Assembly (NCBI GenBank): GCA_013001695.1
Contig: JABDMC010000061.1
Coordinates: 1-34,255, forward strand
DNA length: 34,255 bases
Direction of reading: 5' to 3'
From: Akkermansiaceae bacterium
GTDB lineage: Bacteria > Verrucomicrobiota > Verrucomicrobiia > Verrucomicrobiales > Akkermansiaceae
A model generated the notes under the pieces. The model did not search any database, was not told where the DNA came from, and worked only from the letters and a program-made list of their open reading frames with translations. Below are positions 11,663-17,190 of this stretch, in pieces. Made by a program: the position numbers and the translations under genes. Every line of letters starts with the position of its first letter. Position 1 is the stretch's first letter.

Positions 11663-12664
11663 TCACCCCGCGGCCGGCGCGGATTCCCGCCCGCCCTTCT
11701 TCCACGCGCAGATGAGGAAGGCCGCCCCCATGGCGATCATGAAGAACGAGTAGAACTGCCCCTTGGTCACCCACCCCTCGACGACCCACGCCGCATCCGG
11801 CATCCGGAAGCGCTCCCCGGTGATGCGGAACAGGGCGTAGAGAACAAAGAAGAGGCCGGTCAGGACGCCGTGGCGAAGCTCCGGGAATCTCACCCGCAGG
11901 AAGAACAAGATGGCGAACAACAAGCCCCCCTCGAGCGCGGCCTGGTAAAGCTGCGACGGGTAGCGGCCCTCGAGGAAGGGGGCCACCGCCTGCTCGACGG
12001 CCTCGCTCCCCCGCATGCGCTCCACGAGATTGCCCGGGTAAACCTCCGGATCAACCTGCGTTGCGGCGCGCAGCGCCTCCTCCTGCCGCGCATGCTCGGT
12101 GGTACCCGGGGTGAGGGCCGCCTTGGGAAACTTGACCGCCCACGCCGCGCCGGCGGCGACGCGTCCGTAGAGTTCCCCGTTGATGAAGTTGGCGAGCCGC
12201 CCGAACATGAGGCCGAGGGGGGCCACCACGCAGAGCCCGTCGCCCAGCCCCGTCCACGAGACCTTTTTCATCCGCGCATAGACGTAGGTGAAGATCACGA
12301 GGCCGAGAATCCCGCCGTGGCTCGCCATCCCCCCTTTCCACACCTTGAAGACGAGGAGCGGATCCTCCCGCAGGGGGCCGAAGCCCTCCTCCGGAAGGAG
12401 GTAGAACAGGACGTAGCCGATCCGCCCGCCGAGGAAGACCCCGAAGAGCGCGCAGTAGGCGATGAAGTCGCCCGCCATTCCCGGTTCCAGGACCCACAAT
12501 TTCCGCCGCGCCATCCACCGCAGGAGAAGGTAGCCGGCCAGGAATCCGCCCAGGTAGGCCAGCCCGTACCAGCGCACCTTCAGCTCCCCGAAGAGCGGGA
12601 AGACGACCGGATCGAGGTCGTGGACCCACACCCCCAGCTGCTGCCATGCTTCCGTGATCACCAT
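11663..12664 (-). CDS. lgt: Prolipoprotein diacylglyceryl transferase
   Basis: VRWYGLAYLGGFLAGY; GGRIGYVLFY; KGGMASHGGILG; GRLANFINGELYGR; RYPSQLYQAALEG. Confidence 0.95.
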   Translation of the reverse strand: MVITEAWQQLGVWVHDLDPVVFPLFGELKVRWYGLAYLGGFLAGYLLLRWMARRKLWVLEPGMAGDFIAYCALFGVFLGGRIGYVLFYLLPEEGFGPLREDPLLVFKVWKGGMASHGGILGLVIFTYVYARMKKVSWTGLGDGLCVVAPLGLMFGRLANFINGELYGRVAAGAAWAVKFPKAALTPGTTEHARQEEALRAATQVDPEVYPGNLVERMRGSEAVEQAVAPFLEGRYPSQLYQAALEGGLLFAILFFLRVRFPELRHGVLTGLFFVLYALFRITGERFRMPDAAWVVEGWVTKGQFYSFFMIAMGAAFLICAWKKGGRESAPAAG

Positions 12665-15160: not shown

Positions 15161-15520
15161 ATGAAAAGGAAATTCCACACCATCCTCCCCGCCGCCGCGG
15201 TCAGCGCATGCCTGCTCACCGTCGGCTGTGAAGAAAGCGCCGAAGTCACCGAAGTCGAGGAGAACACCCCCGCGGCCGCGGCCGGCGGCGCCGCCGCCGA
15301 GAGCGAGACCGTCAGCCTGAAGGTCAGCGGCATGACATGAGGCGTCGGATGCGTCAAGGCAGTGCGGTCCGCACTCGCCGAAGTCGATGGCGTCACCGTC
15401 AAGGAAGTCGCCATGCCCGACAAGGCCGTCGTGACGGTTGATCGCGGCAAGGTGAAGAACGAGCAGCTCATCGCCGCCGTGAAGAAGGCCGGGGAGCGCT
15501 ACAGCGCCACCATCGATTAG
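15161..15520 (+). CDS. Candidate selenoprotein: HMA-domain lipoprotein with in-frame TGA (Sec) at 15338-15340
   Basis: MKRKFHTILPAAAVSACLLTVGCEESAEV…SLKVSGMT-U-GVGCVKAVRSALAEVDGVTVKEVAMPDKAVVTVDRGKVKNEQLIAAVKKAGERYSATID*. The frame is intact across the TGA to TAG at 15520, and the TGA sits at the first Cys position of an HMA GMTCxxxC motif. Confidence 0.8.
15358..15379 (+). promoter_or_regulatory. Candidate bacterial SECIS element
   Basis: GGC-AGTGCG-GTC-CGCACT-c-GCC: perfect 6-bp upper stem, 3 more pairs below one bulged C, apical loop GUC with G first. 26 nt lie between TGA and the loop G. Confidence 0.65.
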
Positions 15521-15573: not shown

Positions 15574-17190
15574 TCAGGCGGGTTCGCGCACGTCGGCGGG
15601 CCGCACCACGCCCTTGTCCTTGAAGAAATCGATCAGGGCCTCGCGGCTCGTCATGGGCAGCAGCGTGGCGCGGGCTTCCGGACGCTCCGCGAGGGCCCGC
15701 AGGCGCATGAGGCGCTTGCCTCCCGACTGCGCGTCGTAGCTGTTGAATATGATGCAGTAGCGGTGGTCCTCGGGCTTCTCGACGCCGTTGCGCGGGCGCA
15801 CCGCGGTGACAAAGCGCTCGCCGCGGGACTCGTAGCGCGCCGCCCCGGCGGAGGCCGAGATGACCTCGAACCCGTAGAGGGCCCGGTCGGAGCGGACGTC
15901 GAGGGACTCATCCATGACGGCCGCCAGTTCGGCCCGCGTCAGGTAAAGGGCCACCAGCCGGTTCTCGTAAGGCAGGATGTCCCACATGTCCGCCACCGTC
16001 TTGCTGCCCGCCTTCAGGGTGCCGGACCCGAAGGTCCCGTGAAAGACGCCGTCGGCCGCGATCTCCTTCTTCGCGGCGGCATGAACGAACGCCGCGCACA
16101 GGAGGTTCTGCAACGGGCTGCCGCCGCCGTCGTCGTTCCGGCGGTCGGACAACTCGCCGTCGATCTCACCCACCTCGGTGGCGAGATACCGGCCCGACTC
16201 GTCGAGGTCGTCGCGGGCGGCCTCCAGCACCAGCGGGTCTTCCTCGATGCGCTCGTCCATGAACACCGTGAAGGCCCGCCGCTGCACGAGCCGCCGCGAC
16301 TCGACATCGAACGTCAGGTCGACCCGCCCGCAGTGGATCCCGAAGTAGTTCGCCTGCGTGTAGAGCGTCCCGTCGATCGACATGCTCGAGTGGTCGCGGT
16401 GCGTGTGTCCCGCGAGATAAACGTCCACCCCGTTGTCCCCCGCGAGAACCGCATTGATCGGGTTGGCGAAATCGTCCTCGTCGCGCCACCCGAAATGCCC
16501 GCAGGCCACGACCGCGTCGACCTTCGCCTCCTCGCGGAGATACCGCACGCTGGCCTCGAGCGCCTCCCGCGGGTCGGTGGCCTCGAAACCGCTCAGCAAC
16601 TCCGGGCGGAGCCAGTACGGCAGGCCCGGCGTGACGAGCCCGATCATCCCGATGCGGAACCCGCCGACCTCCTTCACGATATGCGGCAGCACCTTGGCCA
16701 GCGGATGGGTGGCGTCGTCCCAGGTGCCGGCCTGCTTCCCTTCGAGAAGGATGTTCCCGGTGAGGATCGGCATCCGCGAGCGGCTCACCGCATCGAGGAC
16801 CACCTCCGGCCCCCAGTCGAACTCGTGGTTCCCCAACACCCAGGCGTCGTAGCCGAGCTTGTTGAAGAGATCGATCATGAGACGCCCGCGCGTCATCCAA
16901 CCGACCGCCGTCCCCTGGTAAACGTCGCCGATGTCCACCAGGAGGGAATGCGGAAGGGCCTTCCGCCATTCCCGGATCTGCGCCGCACAGCGTGCCAGCC
17001 CGCCGACATTGCCGATCCCGTCGTAGGTCGACGTCGGCCGGATGTGCCCGTGCAGGTCGGTGGTGTGAAAGATCGATACCGAGCGGACCGACCGGGCCGG
17101 GTCCTCGCCCCGCAGGGCGCCGGGCAGCGCCAGGGAGGCCCCGGCAAGGGACGAGCGCTTGATAAAGCCGCGGCGGGAGGAAGTGATCAT
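15574..17190 (-). CDS. Tat-exported bifunctional metallophosphatase/5'-nucleotidase
   Basis: Twin-arginine signal SSRRGFIKRSSLAGASLALPGAL; FHTTDLHGHIRP; GDVYQGTAVG; LGNHEFDWG; ACGHFGW; AGHTHRDH; C-terminal 5'-nucleotidase domain. Confidence 0.94.
   Translation of the reverse strand: MITSSRRGFIKRSSLAGASLALPGALRGEDPARSVRSVSIFHTTDLHGHIRPTSTYDGIGNVGGLARCAAQIREWRKALPHSLLVDIGDVYQGTAVGWMTRGRLMIDLFNKLGYDAWVLGNHEFDWGPEVVLDAVSRSRMPILTGNILLEGKQAGTWDDATHPLAKVLPHIVKEVGGFRIGMIGLVTPGLPYWLRPELLSGFEATDPREALEASVRYLREEAKVDAVVACGHFGWRDEDDFANPINAVLAGDNGVDVYLAGHTHRDHSSMSIDGTLYTQANYFGIHCGRVDLTFDVESRRLVQRRAFTVFMDERIEEDPLVLEAARDDLDESGRYLATEVGEIDGELSDRRNDDGGGSPLQNLLCAAFVHAAAKKEIAADGVFHGTFGSGTLKAGSKTVADMWDILPYENRLVALYLTRAELAAVMDESLDVRSDRALYGFEVISASAGAARYESRGERFVTAVRPRNGVEKPEDHRYCIIFNSYDAQSGGKRLMRLRALAERPEARATLLPMTSREALIDFFKDKGVVRPADVREPA

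Follow-up and report, generated by a model that had tools for sequence, protein, structure and literature searches.

Comparative evidence for a predicted lipid-anchored HMA-domain selenoprotein with a U-x3-C metal loop in an Akkermansiaceae genome

The question raised by this locus is whether an in-frame TGA ends a short gene or is read as selenocysteine (Sec, U) inside a longer one. By the window we mean the whole stretch of 34,255 nucleotides analysed here, from an Akkermansiaceae bacterium (contig JABDMC010000061.1). On its forward strand, which carries all features of the gene given below, a single frame runs from ATG 15161 to a TAG stop at 15518-15520 (the gene being 15161-15520), and as claimed in the first-pass annotation this frame is broken solely by TGA 15338-15340; translated with TGA as U, it gives a protein of 119 aa with a single U, at residue 60. 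The readthrough protein starts with a signal peptide (15161-15229), continues with an Ala/Glu-rich linker and ends with an HMA domain (15302-15514, residues ~48-118, strand-helix-strand-strand-helix-strand), which begins 5' of the TGA and ends well 3' of it. The lipobox LLTVGC reported earlier is indeed present in the signal peptide, and the Lgt gene for the lipidation step is encoded in the same window (11663-12664), so that on the sequence features of bacterial lipoproteins the protein is predicted to be lipidated, with Cys23 as the modified residue. We picture the product as being exported, lipidated on Cys23 and anchored in the envelope through the linker, which would be flexible.

If the TGA were a true stop, the locus would be a pseudogene, or its product would be a short signal peptide plus linker. 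TGA is a stop in the standard code and other genes of the window end in it; actually, TGA is the stop codon of 12 of 25 hand-chosen ORFs and lies inside none of them, which argues against a general reassignment of TGA. The homologues, however, do not end at this position, as the first-pass annotation had wished to see checked: dozens of them have a TGA in this column, which is common to independent assemblies, and members from three phyla retain the TGA along with a conserved sequence 3' of it. An Rfam search over the window gene matched no family, and a scan of the genome contigs with patterns back-translated from the single protein gave 0 matches, probably because patterns across the TGA use TGY for Cys.

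Downstream of the TGA lies a hairpin, GGCAGUGCGGUCCGCACUCGCC (15358-15379), with the apical loop GGUCC at 15366-15370. The five-base loop begins 25 nt 3' of the TGA and the 22 nt have a minimum free energy (MFE) of -11.8 kcal/mol; this spacing, the GG in the loop and the MFE all agree with the bSECIS model of a 2026 review (PMC13188914), which describes a loop of 3-9 nt with G in the first two positions, an upper stem of 4-16 bp, a distance of 16-37 nt from the UGA and an MFE <= -7.5. Among 19-nt segments of homologues, an MFE of -7.5 is reached by just 9 of 49. We scanned 84,980 genomes with a DNA pattern combining TGA and hairpin, TGA N9 TGY N8 AGTGCRGKYYGCACT, that is, the motif AGUGC-RGKYY-GCACU with its loop 25 nt downstream of the TGA. 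The scan gave 79 matches in 74 stretches, where roughly 4 would be expected by chance according to our estimate from the information content of the pattern, and 78 of the 79 encode an exported HMA protein with G-[ML]-x-U-x3-C (the exception being L158). The named hosts of the matches are Akkermansiaceae, Rubritalea and other Verrucomicrobiota, Planctomycetota and Candidatus Poribacteria; Rubritalea profundi (L101) is a host available in culture.

Since the pattern fixes most stem bases, covariation was asked of homologues found by protein instead. With a profile (A1), about 50 loci bearing the TGA were obtained from 260 genomes of the family, and their DNA was then examined; together with earlier loci these make up 51 U-containing genes, of which 49 passed a filter for genes whose first hairpin codon encodes V or I. 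In these 49 genes the first hairpin codon (Val) is always GTG and the hairpin Ala codon always GCA, compared with 18% of Val codons and 24% of Ala codons elsewhere in the same genes, and another hairpin codon is CAG or CGG throughout. Two genes outside the filter (L181 and L189) have Ala in place of Val, with GCG at the first site and GCG also at the partner Ala codon, showing a compensatory change from a U-A pair to a C-G pair. The outer pair, which is left free by the scan pattern and has its 3' base at a silent third position, varies among A-U, G-C, C-G, U-A and G-U, and is paired in 55 of 64 cases against a shuffled mean of 41.3. On the whole, 66 distinct segments have 97% of the stem paired, with a covariation score of 0.153. 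Shuffles give 0.077, none of the 500 coming as high, and slid versions of the stem reach 0.085 at most; the two innermost pairs are invariant and thus neutral, with no covariation signal. The hairpin therefore behaves as a bacterial SECIS in codon conservation, compensatory change, covariation, spacing and MFE, and with its fixed spacing, near-frozen codons and compensatory change the comparative case appears to be one of the clearest for such an element.

The host genome encodes the whole Sec machinery that had been looked for: a tRNA-Sec with anticodon tca, and profile matches to selA (482 bits), selB (286 bits) and selD (378 bits, with one in-frame TGA). Eight of 98 genomes searched (own genome counted) carry a U-x3-C homologue whose TGA falls in the same column, and all eight have a tRNA-Sec over the Rfam cut-off, versus 37 of 98 overall (hypergeometric p 2.5e-4, with the genomes treated as independent though related). 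In a later check four further genomes (G617, G632, G610 and G605) have both the gene and tRNA-Sec; the exception is G630, 86% complete, which has the gene and no tRNA-Sec match at E 1e-7. It is general knowledge that in some bacteria variants of tRNA-Sec insert Cys at UGA, hence readthrough with Cys or another residue instead of Sec has to be considered; this is very improbable here, the host selA and selD being intact and selD itself having an in-frame TGA followed by a strong hairpin with an AGGUC loop. Termination at the TGA is more improbable still, in view of the conserved sequence behind a retained TGA, the codon conservation and compensatory change in the hairpin, and the Sec machinery in the genome. 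Decoding of UGA 15338 as Sec by SelB and tRNA-Sec, with the SECIS loop starting 25 nt downstream, is thus well supported by the comparison of sequences.

We then discuss what the Sec residue may do. Pfam HMA (PF00403) matches residues 53-111 across the TGA (E 1.9e-7, 31.8 bits versus a cut-off of 24.8) and also matches 53 of 54 members of the subfamily at E<=0.001; with the Sec machinery in the genome and the TGA column kept in homologues, the earlier proposal of an HMA-domain selenoprotein is well borne out. An AlphaFold model built with 54 aligned homologues has the HMA fold with pLDDT >90 over most of residues 48-119, and its best Foldseek matches in PDB are HMA7, CopZ-like proteins and MerP (TM 0.82-0.87 by target length), MerP being the closest with 0.87. 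The TGA had been placed at the first Cys of a metal-binding motif, and the position holds; the motif itself is refined. The loop GMT-U-GVG-C differs from the classical GMxCxxC by Sec in place of Cys plus one extra residue, beyond a simple change of C to U in CxxC, and in alignment with MerP and ATP7B the second Cys, Cys64 (TGC, 15350-15352), matches the second Cys of these proteins. Both U and C (Sec60 and Cys64) are invariant in the 54 aligned members (alignment A2). Selenolates have a known affinity for soft metals. Judging from the fold and the chemistry, the Sec60 selenolate and the Cys64 thiolate of this MerP/CopZ-like domain would together bind a soft metal ion, Hg(II), Cu(I) or Ag(I), in a loop exceeding CxxC by one residue, and the most likely role of the protein would be that of an envelope metal scavenger or chaperone. 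The surroundings of the genes indicate no single metal, since no metal-resistance neighbours, or indeed any neighbour genes, are conserved across the family, and a MerA profile search of the host genome found no protein over the cut-off. Synteny is only local: a leuB-like gene stands beside a Rubritaleaceae/Akkermansiaceae subset, and elsewhere the neighbours are other housekeeping genes. The neighbour cluster seen most often was rejected, being an antisense shadow of the HMA gene itself.

Alternatively, the protein may be a selenoprotein with a redox Sec/Cys pair, working as a selenenylsulfide switch or in peroxide/thiol reactions, with metal binding secondary or absent. Redox proteins make up the majority of known selenoproteins (PMC13188914), a selenenylsulfide from the U-x3-C pair is possible in principle, and one subgroup member (L200) has U-x2-C, which suggests that the spacing tolerates change. 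However, the fold is HMA rather than thioredoxin-like, the loop lies at the site of the metal-binding Cys pairs in MerP and CopZ, and no conserved thioredoxin-type partner gene is nearby, so that we consider this redox function unlikely. A lipid-anchored selenoprotein with SECIS-directed Sec, acting as soft-metal scavenger or chaperone in the envelope, would explain the observations jointly, and we give this reading a probability of roughly 0.8.

It is of interest how far such proteins are already known. The 2026 review (PMC13188914) lists 119 selenoprotein families or subfamilies, including UxxU proteins (NF041115), MerT-type C/SxxU and ZntA-type UxxC, and its table has no HMA entry with U-x3-C; this is in accordance with what had been guessed earlier, namely that the lipid-anchored UxxxC form may have been described less often. 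A GOS metagenome survey of 2008 reported two Sec-containing MerP sequences with the motif not given (PMC2398784), hence the U-x3-C form may have been sighted before. In NCBIfam the window protein falls under the cut-off of every model matched. The top score is to CopZ chaperones (NF047957 and others; 47.2 bits versus an 85-bit cut-off), which share the fold, but are cytosolic and have CxxC. The second is to the UxxU (seleno)protein NF041115 (46.2 bits versus a 95-bit cut-off), and 51 of the 54 members also match this model at E<=1e-5. It likewise carries Sec in the metal loop of an HMA-type domain, but has two Sec separated by two residues, whereas the window protein has one Sec and one Cys separated by three. 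MerP (TIGR02052; PDB 1osd, 1afi) is likewise a small exported HMA protein, but has CxxC with Cys and belongs to the mer operon, whereas the window protein has U-x3-C, stands beside aroF and a 5'-nucleotidase-like gene, and lies outside MerP by its score (41.5 bits versus 92.55). Sec in metal-transport proteins is also seen in the MerT/CopZ fusion-like NF045683 and the ZntA-type ATPase (UxxC); these are membrane transporters or fusions, unlike the stand-alone exported domain here. Sec-HMA proteins as such (UxxU, MerP/MerT-like, ZntA) are already known, and the stand-alone envelope form with U-x3-C is apparently uncatalogued. From comparative evidence, the window would hold a real selenoprotein gene belonging to this apparently uncatalogued Sec-HMA subfamily, with novelty at the variant level. 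It would add a coherent selenoprotein subfamily, whose functional domain would be lost in dozens of genomes by gene callers stopping at TGA, and with its small, expressible domain one could ask whether selenium is used in nature as a soft-metal ligand rather than a redox catalyst.

As judged from the sequences at hand, the subfamily occurs chiefly in Verrucomicrobiota, Planctomycetota and Poribacteria. Over all loci, the HMA motifs are counted as U-x3-C 83, C-x2-C 31, C-x3-C 1 and U-x2-C 1; these numbers reflect searches aimed at the Sec-HMA subfamily and are no census. Alternation of Cys and Sec at the U/C-x3-C column, another check proposed earlier, is thus seen in one case: the sole C-x3-C protein, L226 of G280, resembles the family in being small, exported and of HMA type. 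The hairpin is absent from its DNA, and its genome has a marginal tRNA-Sec match of 47.9 bits and a second of 46.7. Hence the U-x3-C subfamily seems mostly, not always, to contain Sec. A lipobox-like Cys is present in ~40% of unbiased homologues by a crude pattern, the others resembling ordinary signal peptides, so that lipid anchoring is no family-wide trait. A profile search of 388 genomes of the phylum gave mainly CxxC proteins, many of them in long ATPase-sized frames.

In the genus, the window gene is an isolated occurrence. It sits between aroF and the 5'-nucleotidase-like gene, and in 14 of 14 other genus genomes these two genes are at the same locus with no HMA gene between them; the gap is 57-169 bp in the 11 genus genomes measured versus 623 bp here. 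In searches with the window protein, none of the 14 genomes gave an HMA match. The simplest reading is that the gene was gained in this lineage, with repeated loss in other genus members being a less simple alternative. A gene tree (~70-76 columns, weak) has Planctomycetota as one supported group and puts the window protein beside two Poribacteria sequences without strong support, for which reason we do not claim a transfer from Poribacteria; plasmid and viral searches found nothing. It is tempting, though rather doubtful, to go further and regard the U-x3-C HMA family as a distinct soft-metal site of the envelope, nearly always built with Sec, where the longer loop and the selenolate would let Hg(II), methylmercury, Ag(I) or Cu(I) be captured very tightly or in a redox-switchable manner; the family might also spread between marine bacteria as single genes.

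Several further observations were made. The U-x2-C member of the family, L200 (G617:C23; GMTUAAC), has its hairpin 22 nt from the TGA and not 25, so that the position of the hairpin relative to the Cys is unchanged. In Verrucomicrobia bacterium MAG-85, one frame (L113:6653-7225, G077:C31) combines a signal peptide with a tandem pair of U-x3-C HMA domains, with a hairpin at each, and has two further in-frame TGAs in a Lys/Ser-rich linker; its product would be a four-Sec protein if every TGA is read. Tandem or adjacent gene copies on one contig are found at L100, L112, L120 and L137, in Rubritalea and Planctomycetota. A second type of exported HMA lipoprotein, with U-x2-C (GVVUGGC), was noticed with L040 (G023:C3:592327-592623) and L037 (G029), together with a Cys counterpart (GVTCGGC) in another genus; for G023 a tRNA-Sec was found too, in a slower search. 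In the host genome, selD (L018, G000:C106) is likely itself a selenoprotein (SCAG-U-ASKLG). The best MerA match there was rejected as an FAD oxidoreductase of another NCBIfam subfamily (NF004991); an FAD oxidoreductase with a sub-cut-off MerA score is recorded at L222 (G000:C299), and the ORF adjoining it resembles, by look, a putative radical SAM protein of the arsenosugar type. In addition, the gene adjoining the HMA gene in the window (15574-17190) encodes a 5'-nucleotidase/UshA-like phosphoesterase with no internal TGA in this copy, and UshA-like selenoproteins stand in the 2026 review table (PMC13188914).
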